Assembly: GCA_009780825.1 (NCBI GenBank)
Contig: WQZH01000001.1
Location: 62,001 to 126,000, forward strand
DNA length: 64,000 bases
Reading direction: 5' to 3'
DNA from: Desulfobulbus sp.
GTDB taxonomy: Bacteria > Desulfobacterota > Desulfobulbia > Desulfobulbales > Desulfobulbaceae
In this document: one piece after another, positions 44,246 to 56,684 of the stretch
Layout of the letters: the number at the start of each line of letters is the position of its first letter
How positions within the stretch are numbered: position 1 is the stretch's first letter
Notes under the pieces: generated by a model
Told to the model about the DNA's origin: nothing
Seen by the model: only the letters and a program-made list of their open reading frames with translations
Databases searched by the model: none
Position numbers and translations under genes: made by a program

Positions 44246-46315
44246 TCAATAATGATAGGCCAAACCAACGTAGAAGTTACGGCCGGGCATGGGGTAGTCC
44301 ATGACGTAGGCGTAGTCCTGATTGAACAGGTTGTTGATTGCGGCGCGCAGGCTCATGGTGCCTTTGTCTTTAAAATCAACCAGCTTTTGTTCAAGACTTA
44401 GGTTCACCACGGTGAATCCGCCGTAATAAATGTACTTTGTCTCGTAGGTCGGGTTGGTCGTCACATTCCAATCGTTCTGATAAGATTTGCCGAAGTAGGT
44501 GAGGTTCAGGTTGGCCGACAGGCCCAGGTCCGGATGATTGAAATCCAGACCGTATGAGGCCGTCATTTTCGGCACATAGGGCAGGGTGCCCGGATCCTGA
44601 GGCACGTAGTTGGTCTGGTCGCCGTTATCGCGCTGCGTCATGAGCGTGATATTGACATAGGGGCGCAGTTTGAATCGCTGCTTCATGGCCTTGCCCAAGT
44701 CCGCTCCAAAAGACAGCTCAAAGCCGGCGTAGACTGAGTCACCCGCCAAGTTGCCATAGATGTAGTTGGGTTGGGGGTAGGGCAAACCAGACGGCAGACC
44801 CGCGATTTTGTCTTTGTAGTTGGTATGGAAATAGGTCAGGCCGGCATTGATGCACTTCCATGACACGTCGGCGCCCACTTCGGCCCCCTGGCTCGTTTCA
44901 GGCTTTAGGCCAGGGCTGGGCGCATAGTAATACGAATCGCCGACCATCTGGGCGGGAGTGGGCATGTGAAAGCCTTCGGCATAATTGGCCCTGAGCTTGA
45001 GAAAATTGACCGGCAGCCAGGCCAGGCCTATCGAAGGTGAAAAATTGCTGTCGCTGAGGTTTTTTCCGCCCACTTCGTCCGTGTTTTCGTACGAGTCGTA
45101 CCGTCCGCCGGCCGACACAATCACTTTCTCGTCAAACAGCCGGAGCTTGCCCAAAAGATAGCCGGCGTAGTCAACAGACTTGGCCTTGGAAGAATTGTAG
45201 CTGTTATCCGCATCCAGGTCGTACTTGATGGCGTCGAACCCGGCGGTCAGCATCAACAGCTTGTTGTCGAACGTGACCCGGGCCTGCCCCTGCTGAAGAT
45301 CGGTGGTGGTAGCGCTCCGATAGTTGGGTACGGGATAGACGGGAGCGCCATAGGTATACGGGTAGTTCTGATCGTAGTAGGAAAGCGATTTGCTTTCGTA
45401 TTGTCCGAAGGTGTAGTCGGCTGCCCAACTGAACATCTTGTCTCCGGTGTGCCCTTCATAGCTGAGGGTGGTGTTGTAGGCAGTGTTGTCGTAGTTGTCG
45501 AAATTATCCGGCCAGACTGAGGTATCCGGCCAGCCGCCGCCGGGCAGTTCGCCATCGCTCATCTTGAAATAATTGAAATGCGCACCGATCCGATGATTTT
45601 CCGAAAAGGTGTATCCGGCATCCAGGTCGAGTCCCAGGCGGTCGCCGACGCTGGTGTGTTTCCAGGTGGCACCGGTTCCGGTTCTGTAATCATCCACCTT
45701 GGAATTGGTGATGGCCCCGGCAAAGTCAAACCCATTTTTGGCCCCGGACATGCTCAGTTTCTGGTTAAAGCCGCTATAGCTCCCCATCCCCACTTCGGCG
45801 TCGACGGTATAGCCTTCCTCTCCACGCTTGGTGATGATGTTGACCACCCCGCCCATGGACGAGGTTCCATACTGTACGGCCGCCGGACCACGGATGATCT
45901 CAATGCGTTCCACGTTGCCCAAGTCTTTGAGATTCAACAAACTGGTGCCGGTACGGTGCCCATTGAGCAAAATCAGGGTGCTCCCTTCCAGTTCATTGCT
46001 CAATGACGAATTGCCGATACCGCGAATGTAGAGGGCGGTGCTGCCGCTCCCATTGCCGCTGGTGGCGTAGGTCTGAAAGCCGTTTTGGTTCAAGAGTTGC
46101 CCCAGGTCGCTGGCCGTGGATTTTTTGATATCCTCTTCCGTGATCACGGTGATGTTGGACGTGACTTCTTTCTTGGCTTCCTTGGCGCTGCTGGCCGTGA
46201 CCACCATCTCGTCCAGTGAGGTCGAAGTTGTCGTGGTTTCGGCCCGAAGCCCTGGAGCGCCCATGAGGGTCAGGCCGAGAAGAGCCGAGGTACATCGAAG
46301 GTAATTGCCGGTCAT
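44246..46315 (-). CDS. TonB-dependent outer-membrane receptor (probable corrinoid receptor, BtuB-like)
   Basis: 689 residues with a signal peptide (LRCTSALLGLTLMGAPGLRA), a TonB box (SLDEMVVTASS), a plug domain (NITVITEEDIKKSTASDLGQLLNQ ... ALYIRGIGNSSLSNELEGSTLILLNGHRTG ... VERIEIIRGPAAVQYGTSSMGGVVNIITKRG) and a 22-strand-type barrel ending in an aromatic residue (FYVGLAYHY). The start has a very strong site (gaggagg). The subclass is BtuB/CirA-like; a cobalamin substrate is inferred because the upstream operon is under a cobalamin riboswitch. It lies 129 bases after the activase gene, so it is probably the last gene of that unit. Confidence 0.9.
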   Translation of the reverse strand: MTGNYLRCTSALLGLTLMGAPGLRAETTTTSTSLDEMVVTASSAKEAKKEVTSNITVITEEDIKKSTASDLGQLLNQNGFQTYATSGNGSGSTALYIRGIGNSSLSNELEGSTLILLNGHRTGTSLLNLKDLGNVERIEIIRGPAAVQYGTSSMGGVVNIITKRGEEGYTVDAEVGMGSYSGFNQKLSMSGAKNGFDFAGAITNSKVDDYRTGTGATWKHTSVGDRLGLDLDAGYTFSENHRIGAHFNYFKMSDGELPGGGWPDTSVWPDNFDNYDNTAYNTTLSYEGHTGDKMFSWAADYTFGQYESKSLSYYDQNYPYTYGAPVYPVPNYRSATTTDLQQGQARVTFDNKLLMLTAGFDAIKYDLDADNSYNSSKAKSVDYAGYLLGKLRLFDEKVIVSAGGRYDSYENTDEVGGKNLSDSNFSPSIGLAWLPVNFLKLRANYAEGFHMPTPAQMVGDSYYYAPSPGLKPETSQGAEVGADVSWKCINAGLTYFHTNYKDKIAGLPSGLPYPQPNYIYGNLAGDSVYAGFELSFGADLGKAMKQRFKLRPYVNITLMTQRDNGDQTNYVPQDPGTLPYVPKMTASYGLDFNHPDLGLSANLNLTYFGKSYQNDWNVTTNPTYETKYIYYGGFTVVNLSLEQKLVDFKDKGTMSLRAAINNLFNQDYAYVMDYPMPGRNFYVGLAYHY

Positions 46316-46410
46316 AGGTTGTCCTCCTCGTGTGATGAGAGCCGATGGATGTTAGGCCCATCGGCGGGTTACCCTGCCGCCTCCGGTTGGCAAGGCGCTT
46401 GACGGTCACA

Positions 46411-46435
46411 TCCGGCCTTCTTCCCAAAGGCCGGA
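46411..46435 (-). repeat. Intergenic hairpin before the TonB-receptor gene
   Basis: Perfect 9-bp stem tccggcctt/aaggccgga with a 7-base loop in the 129-base gap between the activase and receptor genes. No T tract, so not a terminator; possibly an mRNA processing or stability element that separates expression of the receptor from the upstream genes. Confidence 0.45.
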
Positions 46436-46444
46436 CCGCCAAAA

Positions 46445-47212
46445 TCAGGAAAGTGAAACGACCGCGCCATAGGCCACGCTGAACTGCGGCTCGGCCGTCA
46501 CATGAATATCCGTCAGCATTTCGTCTTCCAGCGCTTCCACCAGCCCCCGGTTTTGGGCCGGCCCGCCGTCCAAAAACACGGCCCCCTCCGATTGGCGGCG
46601 CCCCAGAATCCCAGCCACCCGACGGGCCACCGAGGCGTTGAGCGCCCAGATGATCTCCTCTCGTCCGACGCCCTGAGCCAAAAGCGAGATAATTTCACTT
46701 TCGGCGAAGACTGCGCAGGTGCTGTTCAATTCCACATGATTTTTCGCCCGCCGGGCCAGTTCGCCGAAATCTTCCAAAGGCGTATCCAGAAGCCGGGCAG
46801 CCAGTTCAAAGAAGCGGCCAGTACCGGCGGCGCATTTGTCGTTCATCCTGAAATCGGCCACCCGGCCTTTTTCGTCCAAAGTCAGCACCTTCACATCCTG
46901 ACCGCCGATGTTGATGATCGTGCGGGCCTGACCGCCGCTCAGACGGAAGAGCCCCAAGGCGTTGGCGCTGATTTCGTCTATTTGCCGGTCGGTAGCGGCA
47001 AAGAGATTCTTGCCGTAGCCAGTGGCCACCAGGCTGCCGATTTGCTCTTCCGGCAGCGCCAGATTGTGCCGTCCTTTCTGTATCAAACCCATAGCCAATG
47101 CTTCCTGCCCCGGTACGGTGGCCGTCTGGCCTCGCCAAAGAATTTTTTCGTTTTCGACAAAGACCACCTTGATGGCCGTGCTCCCCAGATCCAAACCGAT
47201 ATCGACACGCAT
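46445..47212 (-). CDS. HgdC/BadF-type acyl-CoA dehydratase activase (ATP-dependent electron-transfer ATPase)
   Basis: 255 residues of the ASKHA ATPase fold: phosphate-1 loop DIGLDLGSTAIKVV, NIGGQDVKVL and the cluster cysteines in NDKCAAGTGRFFE and ELNSTCAVFAESEII. In relatives the homodimer holds a [4Fe-4S] cluster between subunits and injects low-potential electrons into an HgdB-type partner with ATP hydrolysis. All key residues are present. The gene begins one base after the HgdB-like gene ends, which fits a dedicated pair. There is no CoA-transferase or dehydratase alpha/beta set nearby, so it probably does not serve amino-acid fermentation. Confidence 0.92.
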   Translation of the reverse strand: MRVDIGLDLGSTAIKVVFVENEKILWRGQTATVPGQEALAMGLIQKGRHNLALPEEQIGSLVATGYGKNLFAATDRQIDEISANALGLFRLSGGQARTIINIGGQDVKVLTLDEKGRVADFRMNDKCAAGTGRFFELAARLLDTPLEDFGELARRAKNHVELNSTCAVFAESEIISLLAQGVGREEIIWALNASVARRVAGILGRRQSEGAVFLDGGPAQNRGLVEALEDEMLTDIHVTAEPQFSVAYGAVVSLS

Positions 47213-47213
47213 T

Positions 47214-48455
47214 TCAGAGATTCTCCAAGTTGTTGCCGAAAGCCTCCAGACGGGTCAGAAGATTTCTGCCATCTTCGGCCGCATAGTCTGTTTCCAGCCT
47301 GATGAACTTCAAGCCGGCCCGCTTCAGCGGCTCCTCTAAGGTCAGGCTTTCCAGATCATACGGATGACAACCCTTCAACACGTGGAGAATCACCCCCTTG
47401 ATCGTCGTGCCCAATACCGCTCCCCGGATATTGTTGAGGCGGCGTCCGTTGTCGCCGAAAGTCGGGCACAAGCAGCCCTGGTGATAGCTTTCGGCCAGAG
47501 CCCGTAACAGCCCGAAATCCGTAGGGTCGTCCATGGTCACCTGGGCGGGAAGGAGCCGTTCCGACGAGCAAAGATCATCGCCTGTGACCGTCAGGCCGGC
47601 CACTTCCAGCAAATGAAGCAGCTTGAAGTTGGGAAAATAGATCGGCGAACCCGCCAAAAACACCAACCCCGCCGCCTTGGCCTGGGTTTGAAATGTTGGC
47701 AGGGCCGCGTCCAAGGCCGCTGTCCAGCGTTCAATGCGATCCAGAAAAAACGAATTGGCTATCAAAAAGAACCACACTGCCGGGACCCGACCAGCCCGCC
47801 GCGCTTCGATCAAACGGCTGAAAGTCTGCCTGGCCTGCTGGAAGGTGGTCAGAGAGTCTAAAAGCATTTTTCGGGTCGGTTTACGCCCCGACAGCCCGGC
47901 CAAAAAATCTTTCAGTCCCGCGACTTCGGCCAGCCAGCGCTCCCCGGCCCGGGCCGAATTCTTCAGATGCGGCAGCTCCAGCCAATGCAGTGGCGTGGAC
48001 ATGTCCAGGCCGCACAGACCCATCATTTCCCGAAATTTCACCACTCAGTCGCAGGTGGTGGGCAAAACCCACGGATGGCCAGAATCTGCCGCTGCCTCCG
48101 ATTCCAAGGCGCCCAGAACTGATCTAAGCATGGGGCACATCAAGGCCGGGAGCTTGGGAGCCGCGATCTGGCCAGCGGCCAGGGAACCGCTGGAAAATTT
48201 ATAAGGATGCAGACCACAGGCCAAAAAAAGCTCCAGCGGCGCCTGCAGACACAAAAGATTCACCACCGGACGATCCACCCGCCGAGCCACCGACGCTGGC
48301 GAAAATCCAGTCCGGAAAAGATCCAGGAAATATGCCAACTCTGGACGATAGTCGTCACGGGCAACAAGCATGTCCAATTCGCGAGCCAATTCCATCTGGC
48401 ATTTTTCTTCCAGCCGAAGTTTCAACCTGCTCTGCCGATCCATATTGCCGGTCAT
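47214..48455 (-). CDS. HgdB/DCCP-like Fe-S reductase component interrupted by an in-frame TGA
   Basis: The ORF track shows two ORFs (48563-48045 and 48044-47214), but both are in one frame and together make a 2-hydroxyacyl-CoA dehydratase subunit-D-family protein. From the ATG at 48455, overlapping the previous stop as ATGA, the frame runs 413 codons with a single TGA at 48047-48045 (codon 137) in LPTTCD-TGA-VVKFREMMG. Family cysteines occur on both sides: LMCPMLRS and PTTCD before; GDDLCSSERL, GCLCPTFGDN and VLKGCHPYDLE after. The TGA could be a nonsense change from Trp (TGG), a selenocysteine codon or a sequence error. The GTG after it lacks a ribosome binding site. The double-cubane-cluster proteins of this family carry out ATP-driven low-potential reductions. 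Confidence 0.85.
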
Positions 48456-49390
48456 AATTTTTTCCCCACCAGTCTCAAGGCCAGCCGCCGGGACGATGAA
48501 AAGAGACGGCGCCCGAACCAATTGAAATGCAGGGCCCCGTCGACCGGGCAAGATTCCAGGCAACGGCCGCAGTTCAGGCAGGTTCCGGCTTGGACATCGG
48601 TCTGTTCCTGTTCTTGGTAGACTTCTTCAATATCCATTGGGCAAACCCGTCGGCAGGTGCCGCAGCCGTGACACAACTGCGGCGTCTTGACCAGGCGCAG
48701 GGCGGTTAGAGGTTTCAAGAGGCGAATCAAAGCCAAGAGAGGACAGAATAGGCAAAAGAAACGGTCCTTGAGAAACATGCCCACCAACATGCCACCGGCG
48801 ATCAAGAGGGACAGAGCGGTGAAGCCCAACGTGACCGCGTTAGTGCAGTCCAGCGACAAGTATTGAGGTTGGCCGGCCAGGAGCGGTAACAGCGGCTTGG
48901 CTGGGCAGATATTGCAAAATGGCAGTTTGAAATCGGGATGGAGCCAGCCAACTGTCACCAAGGGTGGAACCAGGATCAGATAAGCCAAAAGACCGTATTT
49001 GATCCAACCCAGCCGAACCATGGTGGAGGCGGCAATCAGGGCTTCCCGCCAGCCTAAGCGCCGGCGCAGGGCGCTGAGCCAATCATGCACCAGGCCGAAA
49101 GGACACAGCCAGCCACACCAGGCCTTACCCAGCAGCACCACCGACCCGGCAAAGATCAAAAACCAGATCAGGACCCGCCAGCCATCGAAACCGGACAACG
49201 CCGTCCAGGAAAGGCCAAAGCCGATATAGCCCTGCAGGCCCATCAAGTAACAGTGGCCGCCGCAACCGACCACATAGGGGCAGGCAAAACACGGCAAGGC
49301 CGGCCCTAGATTGACGCCGAAGCGCCCGCCATACATCAAAACGATAAAGCCCAGGTGTTGGACGAGAAAGCGGAGGGAGGTCAGGCGCAT
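48452..49390 (-). CDS. Membrane-bound polyferredoxin (NapH/CcoG-like 4Fe-4S protein)
   Basis: The start at ATG 49390 (MRLTSLRFLVQHLGFIVLMYG) overlaps the upstream stop by ten bases; 312 residues. Several transmembrane helices (FIVLMYGGRF, VLIWFLIFAGSVVLL, LLAYLILVPPLVTVGW, LLIAGGMLVGMFL) alternate with cysteine motifs CFACPYVVGCGGHC, WCGWLCPFG (the NapH signature), CNICPAKP and CLFCPLLA. Two C-terminal 4Fe-4S motifs follow: CHGCGTCRRVCPMD and CLNCGRCLESCPVD. Such proteins pass quinol electrons toward a low-potential or periplasmic acceptor. Placement directly before the HgdB-like gene suggests that it feeds electrons to the activase/HgdB pair, or reduces an imported metal cofactor. Confidence 0.9.
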   Translation of the reverse strand: MRLTSLRFLVQHLGFIVLMYGGRFGVNLGPALPCFACPYVVGCGGHCYLMGLQGYIGFGLSWTALSGFDGWRVLIWFLIFAGSVVLLGKAWCGWLCPFGLVHDWLSALRRRLGWREALIAASTMVRLGWIKYGLLAYLILVPPLVTVGWLHPDFKLPFCNICPAKPLLPLLAGQPQYLSLDCTNAVTLGFTALSLLIAGGMLVGMFLKDRFFCLFCPLLALIRLLKPLTALRLVKTPQLCHGCGTCRRVCPMDIEEVYQEQEQTDVQAGTCLNCGRCLESCPVDGALHFNWFGRRLFSSSRRLALRLVGKKL

Positions 49391-50274
49391 ATTCCGAATT
49401 TCCGACGGGTCAGCCAGGCCAGCATGCCGCTGACCAAAGCGCCAGCGGCGAACACCCACAGGCCGGCGGACAAATTCCAGCCAGCCCTGCGGGAACGGTG
49501 GACGAAAAGCGTGAAGGCGACCGAATCGCCGTCGCCACTGTGGACGACGAAAACCAGGGGCTTGGAAGCTAAATCGCCGGCACGGTCGAGGATGGGGTCA
49601 TGCTCGGGTCGGTATCGGAAACCTGCCGCTCCGGGTTTCACCTCGGCCACTTGGCGACCATTATCCCACACGGCCAGGTTTTTGGCCGACGTACCTCCGC
49701 TCCTCTCAATCTTCAAGGTAAATTCCTGACCGGTTTGAGGCCAATAGAGCGGGCCATCGGAACTGACCAAAAATTCCGGCCAGTCTGGTGCCTGGGGCAA
49801 GCGGTTCGGCTCTGGAAAAGCGCCGGCTCCTGAACCGCCATACAGATTGAAGGCTGTTTGCGCATAGTGAAGGCGGCCCCCGATCTCCACCCGGGCGAAA
49901 ATTGAGGCACGTCCATATTCTCCGCTGAAAATGACGATTTTCAGTCCGGCCGTGGACCGCTCCCAACTCAGGCTATGGATTCCAGCGCCTTCAGGAGCGG
50001 TGGTTTCGTTAAAATGTTCCAGCCTGGTCAACCGGTAAAAAACGACCGGATTGCCCAACAAGACCCCGGGGCTGGAACTTTCCAAGGCCAAAATCAACTT
50101 GACCCTGCTATCGGCCAACCGCTCAATCGAAGCGGACGACCATTGCATAAATGCCCCCGCCGCCGGATTCAGTGTCTCGCCAGACGCACCCGAATTTGCG
50201 GTCAGAAATAGCAAACAGACAAAAAAAAAGATGAGCACGATATCGTTCTCACACCAAAATATACAAGGCGCCAC
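49381..50274 (-). CDS. Unknown periplasmic protein with N-terminal signal and C-terminal membrane anchor
   Basis: The tracked start is a GTG at 50274; a GTG at 50238 (VLIFFFVCLLFLTANSGASG) gives a neater signal peptide, so the start is uncertain. The body is beta-rich with no cysteines beyond the N terminus: VKLILALESSSPGVLLGNPVVFYRLTRLEHF, IFARVEIGGRLHYAQTAFNLYG, YWPQTGQEFTLKIERSGG and PLVFVVHSGDGDSVAFTLFVHRSRR. A C-terminal helix (LSAGLWVFAAGALVSGMLAWLTRRK) anchors it in the inner membrane, leaving most of the protein in the periplasm. I recognise no family. It is translationally coupled to the NapH-like gene, so it is likely part of the same electron-transfer or uptake complex. Confidence 0.75.
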   Translation of the reverse strand: MAPCIFWCENDIVLIFFFVCLLFLTANSGASGETLNPAAGAFMQWSSASIERLADSRVKLILALESSSPGVLLGNPVVFYRLTRLEHFNETTAPEGAGIHSLSWERSTAGLKIVIFSGEYGRASIFARVEIGGRLHYAQTAFNLYGGSGAGAFPEPNRLPQAPDWPEFLVSSDGPLYWPQTGQEFTLKIERSGGTSAKNLAVWDNGRQVAEVKPGAAGFRYRPEHDPILDRAGDLASKPLVFVVHSGDGDSVAFTLFVHRSRRAGWNLSAGLWVFAAGALVSGMLAWLTRRKFGICA

Positions 50275-50857
50275 ACCGACCTAGGATTCCTCGTTATCCT
50301 GAAGCAATGCCAGGGAGACAATTGATGCGGCCGAATTTTCTGACTCGTCTCGTTTCCTCCCCCTTCCTCAACGAAGGTGGTGGCCGGCATGGTGAAAACG
50401 GCTCCAGCCATTTGCAGCATACAACTCTCGGTCAACGGGCCCGCCCCGACTCATATCAGCCCGGACAATCGTCACCCCTTTTTTGCAGAAACCAAGGTTT
50501 TCCCCTGGGCAACACTCGGGTCAAAGGTCAACATTCTGACCTGACCGCTCGCACCGGGCAAGGAGGCGAGAAGGCCCGATGCGAACGACGTCTGGTCAGA
50601 ATCCATGATGTGCGCCGCCCAAGTTAAACAACAACCGCGTTGCAGGCTATGGCAGACGCCCCAAGCCGCTCAGGCCATCCAGAGTACCAAGTTGGCGGGG
50701 CGGGAAGCAAGCAAACCGCTGCCAGATGAACCACCGCCGCAAGAGTGAAAAGCGCAAGACACCCCCTCGCTTATCCGTTCACAGGCTCGCCAAGAGTGCC
50801 AGGCTGCGCAGCGCTCCGGCCAGTTGAACAGGGGAGTGATTGCCGATCAGCATCTGT
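50275..50857. other. 583-bp gap inside the cobalamin-controlled cluster
   Basis: No convincing gene on either strand. The tracked ORFs at 50307-50627 (plus) and 50202-50435 (minus) show no domain, signal or good ribosome binding site. I found no second riboswitch, no terminator with T tract and no clear promoter. The stretch separates tonB from the electron-transfer genes and may be remnant DNA or a long leader. Confidence 0.4.
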
Positions 50858-51580
50858 TCACCCTTCCAGTTTAAAGGTAACGGTTTGCTCCACCAGAGCC
50901 TTGACCGCCATACCGTTGACCGTGCCCGGTTTGAACCGCCAGTGGCTAACACACTGCAGTACGCTCTGTTCGAAAATGCCTTTGGGCTCAGCCGCCAGCA
51001 CCGAGATCTGCCCCACTTGGCCGTGTTCGTCGACCACGAATTTGACCTTGATCCAGCCTTCGATGTTCTGCCGTTTGGCGGCCGGAGGATAGGCTGGAGG
51101 CGTTCTGGCCAGCGCTGTCAGCGGCCCGTCGAGCTGACCGATGCTGAAGATGCCGCTGCTGTTGCCGCGCGTCTGGCTGGCCCCGGATCTTTGAGCCGAA
51201 GCGGGGGGGTCCGAGGACACCGGCGCACTGTCCGGTGACGCCGGGGCGTCCGCACCGGTGGTGACCGGAACCGTCTCCACCGACGGCGTCTCTTTGGCCG
51301 CAGACGGCAAAGATTTCCGGATGACCGTTTGTGGCGGCGGCGATTTTTTTCTGAGCGCCGGCTTGGGCGGCACCTTCTTTTCAACCATAGGAGGAGGCGG
51401 GGAGGCCGATTCCATCTTCGCAACCGCCTCCGCTGGTCCAGTTGATGCGAGGATGGAAAAATCAAGCAGGACCGGCGGTTGAATCAATTGGCTATGCTGC
51501 TTCAGGGTAACAACCGCCCCACATACCAACAGCGCATGCAACAGCAGAGATACACAGGCGGCTTTCGCTTGTCGATTCAT
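50858..51580 (-). CDS. tonB: TonB energy-transducing protein
   Basis: 240 residues: an N-terminal inner-membrane helix (ACVSLLLHALLVCGAVVTL) with the conserved His (LLLHALL), a Pro/Lys-rich periplasm-spanning region (SASPPPPMVEKKVPPKPALRKKSPPPQ), a flexible Ser/Ala segment and the TonB C-terminal domain (PAYPPAAKRQNIEGWIKVKFVVDEHGQV ... SVLQCVSHWRFKPGTVNG). It transmits the proton-motive force to outer-membrane receptors. Its ATG overlaps the exbD stop (ATGA). The cognate receptor is probably the one at 44246-46315. Confidence 0.95.
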   Translation of the reverse strand: MNRQAKAACVSLLLHALLVCGAVVTLKQHSQLIQPPVLLDFSILASTGPAEAVAKMESASPPPPMVEKKVPPKPALRKKSPPPQTVIRKSLPSAAKETPSVETVPVTTGADAPASPDSAPVSSDPPASAQRSGASQTRGNSSGIFSIGQLDGPLTALARTPPAYPPAAKRQNIEGWIKVKFVVDEHGQVGQISVLAAEPKGIFEQSVLQCVSHWRFKPGTVNGMAVKALVEQTVTFKLEG

Positions 51581-51960
51581 GGCTGCTGTTCGGTTTGCAG
51601 GATTAACGTGATGAAACCGAGCCGTTTGATCGTTTCGTACAGATCGACGAACTGTTGCAGCGCGATGTCCTTGTCCGCCCTGATGGTGAGCGGCGTGGTC
51701 CGGTCCACAGCCGCCAAGGCCGATCCCAGTTCAGTCAGCGGTGTTTCGGTGGTTTCGACCCAGACTTTCCCTTCCTTGGTGATGGTGATGTTTAAGGGGT
51801 GCTGCGCTGCCGCCTCCCGGCTGGCTGCGGCTTGGGGCAGCTCGACCTTGATGCCGCCGATGGCGATGAAAGTCGAGGTGGTGAGAACGATAGTCAGCAA
51901 CACCAGCATCACATCGACCAGAGGGATGACATTGAGATAATCAAATTCCTTTTCGTCCAT
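51577..51960 (-). CDS. exbD: ExbD biopolymer transport protein
   Basis: 127 residues from the ATG at 51960 (MDEKEFDYLNVIPLVDVMLVLLTIVLTTSTFI); the tracked ORF adds 30 spurious residues. The conserved proton-carrying Asp lies in the single transmembrane helix (PLVDVMLVLL), and the periplasmic domain has LTIRADKDIALQQFVDLYETIKRLGF. It overlaps exbB by 20 bases. Confidence 0.95.
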   Translation of the reverse strand: MDEKEFDYLNVIPLVDVMLVLLTIVLTTSTFIAIGGIKVELPQAAASREAAAQHPLNITITKEGKVWVETTETPLTELGSALAAVDRTTPLTIRADKDIALQQFVDLYETIKRLGFITLILQTEQQP

Positions 51961-52372
51961 GGCGGATATCCCACTGGATGAGGAGAACCTTGCAGCGGCG
52001 GAGCAGGAAGTTGTAGAAGGTGATCGCCGGAATGGCCACCAGCAGGCCAAGCGCGGTGGCCTTGAGCGCCAGTGCCAGCTCGGTCATGATCTTGGTGGTG
52101 TCAAAGCCGCTGGCGCCAATGTCGTAGAAAGTGAGCATGATGCCGAGTACGGTGCCGAGCAGACCAATATAGGGGGCATTGGCGCCGATGGTAGCAATCA
52201 GGTGAAGTTTATGGCTCAGATGCAGTTCAAGTTCCTTGCGGTCAGTGAATTGCTTGATGTCGGTCGAACGGTAAACCAGCCAACGTTCGATAGCCGTGGC
52301 AATGGCGATGACGCTCAACACCAGGAGCAAGCCGAGCACACCGTAATCGATCAGGGAATGCAAATGTTCCAT
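51941..52372 (-). CDS. exbB: ExbB proton-channel protein (MotA/TolQ/ExbB family)
   Basis: 143 residues from the ATG at 52372 (MEHLHSLIDYGVLGLLLVLSVIAIATAIERWLVYRS), preceded by aagga. The second and third helices carry LIATIGANAPYIGLLGTVLGIMLTFYDIG and the ALALKATALGLLVAIPAITFYNFL signature of the MotA/TolQ/ExbB family. Shorter than E. coli ExbB but normal for the compact type. First gene after the cobalamin riboswitch. Confidence 0.95.
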   Translation of the reverse strand: MEHLHSLIDYGVLGLLLVLSVIAIATAIERWLVYRSTDIKQFTDRKELELHLSHKLHLIATIGANAPYIGLLGTVLGIMLTFYDIGASGFDTTKIMTELALALKATALGLLVAIPAITFYNFLLRRCKVLLIQWDIRHGRKGI

Positions 52373-52630
52373 GAGGGTCCTTGAAGGCGGCGCAATAGTG
52401 GCGCATGAAAAACGGACGCATCGTTTACCGCGGGCAGAACGGATGCGCAGGCGACCGACGGCGCGGTGACAACCCGGAAACGGCGCAGGAGACAACGCGC
52501 CGTTTTCAACAGGCGTTGCGGTCGTTGCGGTGCAATGACAGGGGAAAAAGAGGCATCCTTTGCATGGTTCTCCGCATGATACGCAAGCAGCGTCGACAAT
52601 GAAGGATGGCCGGGAACCTGCGGAGGGGAC
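52373..52630 (-). promoter_or_regulatory. Leader between riboswitch terminator and exbB
   Basis: 258 bases with no convincing gene, transcribed only when the upstream terminator is read through. No further hairpin with T tract was seen. Confidence 0.4.
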
Positions 52631-53053: not shown

Positions 53054-54844
53054 TCACTTCCCATCCAAGCGCACCAAGTCCCGGTACACACCCCCTTGGC
53101 CCATCAGCTCGTCGTGGCTGCCCTGCTCGACGATCCGCCCTTGATCCAGGACAACGATCCGGTCAACCCGTCTGATGGTGGACAGCCGGTGAGCGATCAC
53201 CAACGAGGTGCGGTCGCGGAAACCAGCGGCGACTGCCTGCTCCAGCATATTTTCCGATTCGGTGTCGATGGAGGCGGTGGCCTCGTCGAGCACCAGGATG
53301 GCCGGGTCACGATATAAGGCCCGGACGAAAGAGAGTAGTTGCTTCTCGCCCAGACTGAGATTGAGTGCCCCCTCCCCGATACGGGTATCCATTCCCTTGG
53401 GCAGCCGGTCGACAAATGCCTGGAGGCCGGTCTGGTCAAGGATGGCGGCCAGCCGCTCCTCGTCCGGTTCTTGGTCGAGGATGATATTGGCCCGCACCGT
53501 GTCCGGCAGGATAAAAATGTCCTGCATGATCAGACCGACCCGTTGCCGCAGGATGTCCAGGGGCAGCGTGCGAATATCCTCGCCGTCGATCAGCACCTGT
53601 CCGGCCACCGGATCGTAGAAGCGGACCAGCAGGGAAATCAGGGTCGATTTGCCGGCGCCGGTGGTCCCGACCAGGGCCACGGTCTCGCCGGGTCGAATGG
53701 TCAGGTCGATCCCATGCAGAATCGACTGACCCGGTTCGTAGCCGAATTCCACGCCCTTGAATTCGACCAAGCCCATAACCGCTCGCGTCCCAGTGGTCAA
53801 TGGCCGGACAGGCACCGTCATGACAGGACGGGTATCAAGCGTCTGAAAAATACGCTCCGCCGAGGCCATGGCCGCCTGGACAATGGAATATTTCTGGGAA
53901 AGTTCGCGCAGAGGCTGAAAAAAAAGCCGCATGTACGAAATAAAGGCGGCGAGTTCGCCGATGGTCAAGTGGCGGCGGATGACCTCGCCGCCGCCGTACC
54001 AAATGATCAAGGCGATGGCGACCGAACTCATCAGATCGATCAGGGGCATAAACAGACCAAATAGCTTGATCTGGTCAAAGGAGTGCACCAGGTATTCCCT
54101 GGTCAACTCGCCGTGCCTGCGGCTGCTTCGTTCCTGGCCGCCGAAGCACTGGATCACCGCTACTCCGGCCAGGGACTCGGCCAAGAAGCTGTTGATCCGG
54201 GCCAACTGCGAACGGATGGCACGGAATTGCTCCCGGGCGAAACGGGAAAACAGCATGGTGCTGATCGCGGCCAACGGGATAAAAACTGCCATCACCAGGG
54301 CCAGCCGCCCGTTCATCAGGAACAAGAACCAGAAGATACCCGCCAACTTGAGGCCGTCATTGAACAGAGTGACCATCACCGAGGTGAACATCTCGTGCAT
54401 GTTTTCGATGTCGTTGGTCAGTCTGGTCACCAGGCGGCCGGCGGGATGGCCGTGAAAATAGTGCAGATCAAGGGTGAGGAGATGGGAAAAAAGATGCTGC
54501 CGCAGACGGTGCATGATCGACTGGCCGACCCATTCCAGCACCACCACCTGCAAAAAGGTGGTCAGAAAAACCACCCCAACCAGCAAGCCGTACAACAGCG
54601 CGACCCGGCCGAGTCCGGCAATGCGCTCGGACCGGCTGATCCCTTCGGCGACAATGGAGGTGTCGATGCCCATCTGCATCAGCCGCGGCAGAGCCAAAGA
54701 GGCCACGGTGATGACCAGCGCCAGGCCGACGGCCCCGGTCAGGGCCAGCCCATGCCCACGGCAGTAACCGAGAATCCGCCGCCAGAGCCGGACATCGCCT
54801 ATCGTGCCGGGATGCCCATCTTCCGCATACCCGAAATTATGCAT
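53054..54844 (-). CDS. ABC exporter half-transporter A (TMD-NBD), heterodimer partner
   Basis: The start is moved to the ATG at 54844 (MHNFGYAEDGHPGTIGDVRLWRRIL), overlapping the upstream stop by eight bases (ATGCATAA); 596 residues. Six transmembrane helices at 25-330 are followed by an NBD: Walker A LVGTTGAGKSTLI, Q-loop GLIMQDIFILP, signature reading NLSLGEKQLLSF (LSLGE instead of LSGGQ) and Walker B LVLDEATASID with the catalytic Glu. The altered signature here and the altered Walker B in the partner belong to the same composite site, as in TM287/288-type heterodimeric exporters. The substrate is unknown (drug or lipid class by family). Confidence 0.93.
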   Translation of the reverse strand: MHNFGYAEDGHPGTIGDVRLWRRILGYCRGHGLALTGAVGLALVITVASLALPRLMQMGIDTSIVAEGISRSERIAGLGRVALLYGLLVGVVFLTTFLQVVVLEWVGQSIMHRLRQHLFSHLLTLDLHYFHGHPAGRLVTRLTNDIENMHEMFTSVMVTLFNDGLKLAGIFWFLFLMNGRLALVMAVFIPLAAISTMLFSRFAREQFRAIRSQLARINSFLAESLAGVAVIQCFGGQERSSRRHGELTREYLVHSFDQIKLFGLFMPLIDLMSSVAIALIIWYGGGEVIRRHLTIGELAAFISYMRLFFQPLRELSQKYSIVQAAMASAERIFQTLDTRPVMTVPVRPLTTGTRAVMGLVEFKGVEFGYEPGQSILHGIDLTIRPGETVALVGTTGAGKSTLISLLVRFYDPVAGQVLIDGEDIRTLPLDILRQRVGLIMQDIFILPDTVRANIILDQEPDEERLAAILDQTGLQAFVDRLPKGMDTRIGEGALNLSLGEKQLLSFVRALYRDPAILVLDEATASIDTESENMLEQAVAAGFRDRTSLVIAHRLSTIRRVDRIVVLDQGRIVEQGSHDELMGQGGVYRDLVRLDGK

Positions 54845-56684
54845 GGCTCTGCTGCTTCTCCGCCATGGCGCGATACAATGGGTTGGCAAGCAGGGTCTGG
54901 TGTCGACCCTCGGCAACGATGCGCCCGTCGTCGAGGATGACGATCCGCTCGGCATGGCGCAGGACATTGACCCGGTGGGAGACGAGCAACACAGACCTGC
55001 CGCGCAAATGGTCCAGCAGGCCGCGCAGCACCTGTTGTTCCGTCTCGACGTCAATGGCGGACAGGGCATCGTCGATGATCAGCATCGGCCGGTCGCAGAG
55101 CAGTGCCCGGGCCAGCGCCAACCGCTGCCGCTGGCCGCCGGAAAGTTTCACCCCCCGTTCGCCGATCACCGCCTGGTATCCTCCGACAAAATCCTGGATC
55201 TCGCCGTCGATGGCTGCGGCCCTGGCCGCAGCCACGATTTCGTCCATGGTGGCGCCGGGGCGGCCAAAGGCGATATTGGCAGCCACGGTATCGGCAAAGA
55301 CCACCGGTTCCTGGCCGACATAGGCGATGCAATCGCGGATATCCGCCTGACTGAGCCGGTTGACATCGATCCCCCGGAAAAAGAGCATGCCGTCGGCCAC
55401 TGGATACATCCTGAGCAGCAGTCTGCACAGGGTGGACTTGCCCGAACCGGTACGGCCGGTCATGCCCACCAAGCCTGGTCCGATCGTCAGGTCAATTCCG
55501 GCCAGCGCCGGCCGCGTACCCGACGGATAGGTGAAAGAGAGCCCTTGACACGCATAGGTGGTCGGCATGGCGGAAGGCAGAGTTTGAAGAAAGCTGCCGG
55601 CATTGACCACCGGCCGTTGCGCCAACAGGCGATGGATGCGGCGCAGGCTGGTCATTCCCCGTTGAGTGAGGTTGGCTACCCATCCCAGCGCCATCATCGG
55701 CCAGATAAGCATATACAGATAGCTGACAAAAGCGACGAAAGCGCCGATGCTGATTTGGCCGTCGATCGTCAGGATGCCGCCGTAATAGAGAACAAGCAGC
55801 ATACCGACATTGCCGACCAGGGTGGCGATGGGAAAAAGCAACCCCTGAATGGCCGCCACCTTGAGATTGCTCCGCACATACGTCTCGCCCAGGTTCCGGA
55901 ACCGCTCCTCTTGGAACCGTTCCAAAGTATAGGATTTGATCAGCCGGATCGAGACCAGGGTGGCGCGGGTGAACTCGGTGAGCAGGGCGAACTGTTCCTG
56001 AACCAGGTTGAAGCGATGATGGAGGCGGCCAGACAGGATGCGGGTGCCCACGATCAGCACCGGCATGGGTAACAGGGCCACCAGGGTCAGCTTGATGTTG
56101 ATCGCCAGCATGAACCCCAGGGCCGCCGCCGACATCACCAGGGAGTCCACCGCCGCCACCAGCCCCATGCCGCAGGCCATTTGGATGGTGGCCAGGTCGT
56201 TGCTGGCGTGGGCCATGAGATCCCCGATGGTCCAGCGCTCGAAAAAGGGTTGATCCATGCGCAGCACATGCTCGAACAGGCGGTCGCGCAGCTTTTTTTC
56301 CAAAATGCGGGAAAAGCCGATGATCAGATAGCGCCAGACAAAGCGGAGAGCGGCCACCACCACAGCCACCGCCAGGACGTACACACTCAATTCGATCAGG
56401 CGGGCCGGAATAGCCGCCTGCACCGCCAGGACGTACACACTCAATTCGATCAGGCGGGCCGGAATAGCCGCCTGCACCGCCAGTCCGTCCACCGCCGACT
56501 TGACGAAGCGGGGGATGACCAGTTGCAGGAAGTCGACCGCCACCAGGGCAAAAAAACCGATGGTCAAACGTGGCCAGTGGCTGCGAAAGATGGGGACGAG
56601 CAACTTCAGCAGGGAAGCGGGGGGTGCCTCCTGACTGCCCGCGGCGCCTTGTCCGGTCCCGGAGCCGGTAGCTGAGACGGTCAT
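54837..56684 (-). CDS. ABC exporter half-transporter B (TMD-NBD) with an 18-residue tandem duplication
   Basis: 615 residues: a short polar N terminus, six transmembrane helices, then an NBD with Walker A TGRTGSGKSTLC, signature KLSGGQRQRLALARAL and Walker B LIIDDALSAID, where Asp replaces the catalytic Glu. It is therefore the partner with the degenerate Walker B in the heterodimer. Between helix 1 and helix 2 the sequence VQAAIPARLIELSVYVLA occurs twice in a row, caused by an exact 54-bp tandem repeat. The gene overlaps the J-domain gene by ATGA and the other half-transporter by 8 bases, so all are one operon. Confidence 0.93.
   Translation of the reverse strand: MTVSATGSGTGQGAAGSQEAPPASLLKLLVPIFRSHWPRLTIGFFALVAVDFLQLVIPRFVKSAVDGLAVQAAIPARLIELSVYVLAVQAAIPARLIELSVYVLAVAVVVAALRFVWRYLIIGFSRILEKKLRDRLFEHVLRMDQPFFERWTIGDLMAHASNDLATIQMACGMGLVAAVDSLVMSAAALGFMLAINIKLTLVALLPMPVLIVGTRILSGRLHHRFNLVQEQFALLTEFTRATLVSIRLIKSYTLERFQEERFRNLGETYVRSNLKVAAIQGLLFPIATLVGNVGMLLVLYYGGILTIDGQISIGAFVAFVSYLYMLIWPMMALGWVANLTQRGMTSLRRIHRLLAQRPVVNAGSFLQTLPSAMPTTYACQGLSFTYPSGTRPALAGIDLTIGPGLVGMTGRTGSGKSTLCRLLLRMYPVADGMLFFRGIDVNRLSQADIRDCIAYVGQEPVVFADTVAANIAFGRPGATMDEIVAAARAAAIDGEIQDFVGGYQAVIGERGVKLSGGQRQRLALARALLCDRPMLIIDDALSAIDVETEQQVLRGLLDHLRGRSVLLVSHRVNVLRHAERIVILDDGRIVAEGRHQTLLANPLYRAMAEKQQSHA
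56371..56478 (-). repeat. Exact 54-bp in-frame tandem duplication
   Basis: Units 56371-56424 and 56425-56478 (gccaggacgtacacactcaa...cacc) are identical at all 54 positions and keep frame, adding 18 residues to the first extracytoplasmic region or second helix of the ABC exporter. Absence of any mismatch points to a recent event. Confidence 0.95.

Follow-up and report, generated by a model that had tools for sequence, protein, structure and literature searches.

A stop codon at a conserved tryptophan position in an HgdB-like gene of Desulfobulbus sp.

An HgdB-like gene of Desulfobulbus sp. is interrupted by one in-frame TGA at a codon that specifies tryptophan (TGG) in all 39 homologues of its subfamily. 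The most probable explanation, with a probability of roughly 0.65, is a recent nonsense mutation from TGG to TGA (Trp137 to stop) in what appears from profile searches to be the genome's single PF06050 gene. The gene lies on the minus strand of the window, which here means the whole stretch of 64,000 nucleotides that was analysed (contig WQZH01000001.1, positions 62,001 to 126,000). The features discussed below are collected in Table 1.

Table 1. Features of the interrupted gene and its surroundings, in positions of the window
Feature	Positions	Strand	Evidence or remark
HgdB-like gene (PF06050, HGD-D), interrupted	47214..48455	-	413 codons if the inner stop is read through
In-frame TGA, codon 137	48045..48047	-	Otherwise invariant Trp (TGG) codon; TGG in 39/39 homologues
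5' part of the gene	48048..48455	-	Would give a truncated product of 136 residues that ends ...PTTCD, just past the conserved TTCD cysteine
3' part of the gene	47214..48044	-	276 codons open from the GTG beside the TGA; carries the later conserved cysteines of the family
Claimed SECIS-like hairpin GGGUC-UGUGC-GGCCU	48007..48021	-	Not above background
HgdC-like activator ATPase (PF01869 BcrAD_BadFG), intact	46445..47212	-	158.1 bits
NapH-like polytopic 4Fe-4S membrane protein, intact	48452..49459	-
Conserved exported protein, about 290 residues, no Pfam match	49381..50274	-	Same place in related operons
TonB-dependent outer-membrane receptor	44246..46315	-
tonB, exbD, exbB	50858..52495	-

The preliminary description of this DNA had reported a single TGA inside an otherwise intact HgdB-like gene, and this is confirmed on the minus strand, where the sequence runs ...CCC ACC ACC TGC GAC TGA GTG GTG AAA TTT... 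with the TGA at 48047-48045. The joined protein gives a single Pfam HGD-D match (residues 69-409, profile positions 1-341 of 342) that scores 193.7 bits, whereas the C-terminal part alone scores 153.6 bits over profile positions 79-341. One match that spans both parts, with a higher score than the larger part alone, shows that this is one gene that is truly interrupted. No other PF06050 match is present in the 2.75 Mb genome. GC content at third codon positions (0.61 and 0.70 in the two parts) is similar to that of the neighbours and is uninformative.

Evidence for the original codon is provided by the homologues. These were collected from GTDB genome contigs in general and from three narrower groups, namely the window's own family, its phylum and the family richest in close relatives. 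The subfamily to which the window gene belongs consists of 39 loci that are 40-57% identical and come from several phyla. Aligning homologues at the codon, a check that the preliminary description had proposed, finds TGG in every one of the 39, within the motif CDW, which favours mutation or error. More distant members carry Ala, Gly, Gln or Ser at the aligned position. Neither Cys nor TGA is found there in any homologue examined, whether in the subfamily or among the more distant members. Maximum-likelihood phylogeny places the window gene within the tryptophan clade (node support 99/97) and separates this clade with 100/100 from the outgroups, which carry Ala, Gln or Ser. Because the whole clade has TGG and the window gene is nested within it, the ancestral codon was TGG, from which one base change gives TGA. 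The branch of the window gene has an ordinary length (0.48, against a median of 0.34 for end branches). Across the other 39 sequences, 51 columns are almost invariant; the window protein keeps 50 of these and differs only at the tryptophan itself.

The neighbouring genes are equally well preserved. The HgdC-like gene has lost 1 of 57 invariant columns and the NapH-like gene none of 36; both are intact and conserved. Since neither the interrupted gene nor its neighbours show any further sign of decay, the change is either recent or an error in the consensus. The proposal in the preliminary description that a Trp codon had become TGA by mutation or by base error is thus strongly supported, and it is very probable that one or the other is correct. 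How the probability is divided between the two is a matter of judgement.

In the second of these explanations, the TGA is a consensus error, or a base from a minor strain that entered the assembly, and the gene of the organism is intact. This is possible, though clearly the less likely of the two. It fits a gene in which everything but one base looks fully constrained and whose flanking genes are intact. A nonsense mutation, by comparison, must be recent because the rest of the gene has not decayed further, which is a point against it. However, the assembly appears to be of good quality, with 56 contigs, a completeness of 100 and a contamination of 0.07, and the local sequence bears no mark of error. 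We infer that the base is truly present in the organism.

The nonsense mutation is also consistent with the history of the gene. Members of the tryptophan clade were absent from the other members of the genus that were searched, where the best matches reach about 33% identity, and the closest relatives of the window gene belong to another family and to other phyla. This distribution suggests that the operon was acquired horizontally, and would suit a recent acquisition. By the look of it, the HgdB-like gene is dispensable. As in a pseudogene, an open frame with TGG is found in 39 homologues at the place where the window gene has its stop.

If the change is real and recent, it has struck the single HgdB-like gene of a NapH-HgdB-HgdC operon that was probably acquired horizontally. 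Ribosomes would halt after residue 136, so that the greater part of the protein would be missing, and with it the later conserved cysteines. Of the HGD-D domain, a product of this size would hold no more than the beginning, and it is presumably inactive. The expected outcome would be loss of the reductase component, and hence of function, next to neighbouring genes that remain intact.

Broken copies of such genes may occur elsewhere too. Genomes of one family (f83; G310, G474, G476, G478 and others) contain up to five HgdB copies of the tryptophan type per genome. On one contig of these (C232 of G478), HgdB matches are found in two pieces, one of which has an inner TAA; it is this case that raises the possibility.

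A TGA within a gene can also encode selenocysteine, and the preliminary description had offered this as a second option for codon 137. The organism does have the means. Its genome contains a tRNA-Sec (72.7 bits, anticodon UCA), SelB (355.7 bits), a SelD with an in-frame TGA near its N-terminus (L062; 367.8 bits), and the large subunit of a NiFe(Se)-type hydrogenase with a TGA at the C-terminal motif (L068). To judge from these genes, the organism makes real selenoproteins, and its SelD and hydrogenase, each with a strong SECIS-like hairpin, are genuine candidates. The option nevertheless fails on homology. Essentially all known selenoproteins have homologues with Cys at the position of selenocysteine (PMC12013277; PMC13188914). 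Here the aligned residue is never Cys: all close relatives have Trp, and distant ones have Ala, Gly, Gln or Ser. None of the 39 homologues has another TGA at this codon.

It fails on the SECIS element as well. In the bacterial model, the hairpin has a loop of 3-9 nt with a G in the first two loop positions, lies 16-37 nt from the UGA, and has a minimum free energy of -7.5 kcal/mol or lower (PMC13188914). The letters of the hairpin that had been put forward (GGGTC-TGTGC-GGCCT) are present at the position given, with the loop beginning at nucleotide 29 after the TGA. The geometry agrees with the model, but the energy of -6.7 kcal/mol misses the limit. This hairpin carries no weight, because it is weaker than the median of -7.7 kcal/mol for 400 random TGAs of the window, 62% of which equal or beat it. 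The caution that such hairpins arise by chance was well placed. The corresponding hairpins of the organism's own selenocysteine genes reach -16.6 kcal/mol (SelD) and -13.9 kcal/mol (hydrogenase). These two genes served as the controls; the model for the formate dehydrogenase alpha subunit gave open frames only. The fold of the whole 58-nt stretch downstream of the TGA is no more stable than that of shuffled sequence (z -0.56). An Rfam search around the TGA, run with a permissive cut-off, gave no meaningful match, only two chance miRNA matches far under their gathering scores.

Selenocysteine at codon 137 is therefore very unlikely. The preliminary description had set against the idea an invariant tryptophan in a genome without the machinery for selenocysteine. 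The tryptophan is indeed invariant, but the machinery (tRNA-Sec, SelB and SelD) is present. Such machinery by itself is not enough to save the idea. It would require that selenocysteine had replaced a conserved tryptophan beside a cysteine of the cluster type, in a reductase driven by ATP and without a canonical SECIS, which we regard as highly improbable. If true, this would be a selenocysteine with no corresponding Cys position, contrary to the pattern described in PMC12013277 and PMC13188914. The selenoprotein claim should be dropped. The lesson is that selenocysteine machinery, an in-frame TGA and a small hairpin are together insufficient, and that the aligned residue decides.

Alternatively, the two halves might be made as separate subunits through reinitiation, the third option that had been raised. 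The first would consist of residues 1-136, and the second would start at GTG 48044 or at ATG 48026 or 48023. A GTG directly after the TGA and an ATGATG 18 nt beyond it offer possible starts. However, all 39 homologues run unbroken through this site, and no good Shine-Dalgarno sequence precedes the candidate starts; the GGGA at 48031-48028 is a weak one and lies too near. The interruption comes two residues past the TTCD cysteine, whose motif aligns with that of the double-cubane cluster protein (6eno, 7yyl), so that a split would part this cysteine from the later conserved ones. The option is unsupported, and reinitiation is improbable.

Finally, UGA might be read as tryptophan, whether by reassignment of the codon, by a suppressor tRNA or by strong readthrough. 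The codon sits exactly at a tryptophan position, and tRNA-Trp reads UGA as a near-cognate codon at a low level. Against this, ARAGORN on the tRNA loci found a UCA anticodon only in tRNA-Sec, with CCA in tRNA-Trp and no dedicated UGA suppressor; two weak Rfam hits among these loci were unconfirmed as tRNAs. Long open reading frames also end in TGA more often than in any other stop codon (30 of the 51 in the window plus two other stretches). Other pairs of frames separated by an in-frame stop occur in 102 kb, and the 11 that were inspected proved to be either adjacent genes or, apparently, anticoding frames. A scan of the 102 kb for interrupted genes by codon bias, a weak detector, left the HgdB-like site outside its top 25. 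Reassignment of UGA to Trp is excluded, and strong reading of this codon as tryptophan by any of these routes has very little probability. Low-level leaky reading may occur, and is immaterial to the classification.

The neighbourhood is the more interesting part, although it is incidental to the TGA. On the minus strand, a run of genes (44246-52495) encodes ExbB, ExbD, TonB, the exported protein, the NapH-like protein, HgdB, HgdC and the TonB-dependent receptor. Relatives of NapH and HgdC occur in nearly all related loci (38 other loci each). The NapH-HgdB-HgdC cassette also stands beside TonB/ExbBD and a TonB receptor at six further loci (L034, L035, L037, L038, L039 and L040), and in the same six an open reading frame resembling the exported protein lies directly upstream of NapH.

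In some relatives the cassette has additional companions. At L034 they are CobN-like, ExbB and TonB proteins; L037 has DUF2162, DUF2149 and CbiZ with a periplasmic binding domain (BtuF-like), and L039 has CbiZ. CobN itself has no match in the window's genome. The CobN-like protein HmuS removes iron from heme (PMC12583661), and CbiZ, according to its Pfam name, acts on adenosylcobinamide. These two activities make it plausible that the cassette provides low-potential electrons for the handling of an imported tetrapyrrole; this is a lead and not a result. It looks like tetrapyrrole import coupled to an ATP-driven low-potential reductase. We found no published description of such a coupling, and searching the literature for CbiZ in combination with 2-hydroxyacyl-CoA dehydratase returned nothing. 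The lasting value of the locus lies in this little-studied cassette, which is found with genes for TonB-dependent uptake, CobN-like proteins and CbiZ in metagenome-assembled genomes of several phyla.

Elsewhere in the window, a perfect 54 bp tandem repeat of 2.2 copies (56367-56483) lies inside an ABC transporter gene (54837-56684, minus strand). It is an in-frame duplication of LAVQAAIPARLIELSVYV, either recent or an artefact of assembly.

Three known systems can be compared with the interrupted gene. Like bacterial selenoproteins with an in-frame UGA, it has a TGA in an otherwise intact gene for a redox protein, in an organism with selenocysteine machinery. It differs from them in that the aligned residue is Trp and not Cys, no homologue bears a TGA, and no SECIS rises above background. 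Bacterial pseudogenes with a single nonsense codon show the same pattern as the window gene, namely a one-base change at a conserved codon of a single, probably dispensable gene that is otherwise intact, and as far as tested there is no difference.

The third comparison is with the double-cubane cluster proteins and the reductases of the 2-hydroxyacyl-CoA dehydratase type (PF06050; PDB 6eno, 7yyl and 3o3m; BzdN, 8s02). The window protein shares with them the PF06050 domain (positions 1-341 of 342), cysteines in TTCD, in a DDLCS-like site and in a C-x-C-like site, and an ATPase partner of the HgdC type. Double-cubane cluster proteins are defined by an [8Fe-9S] double-cubane cluster and by low-potential reduction that depends on ATP. 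The likeness of the window protein to the double-cubane cluster protein (6eno/7yyl) is one of sequence similarity, and even in sequence the window protein is distant from this group. After the CD motif, its subfamily has Trp where the group has Gly or Ala. Unlike those of the group, the window gene is accompanied by TonB genes and a gene for a NapH-like protein, and it carries a stop.
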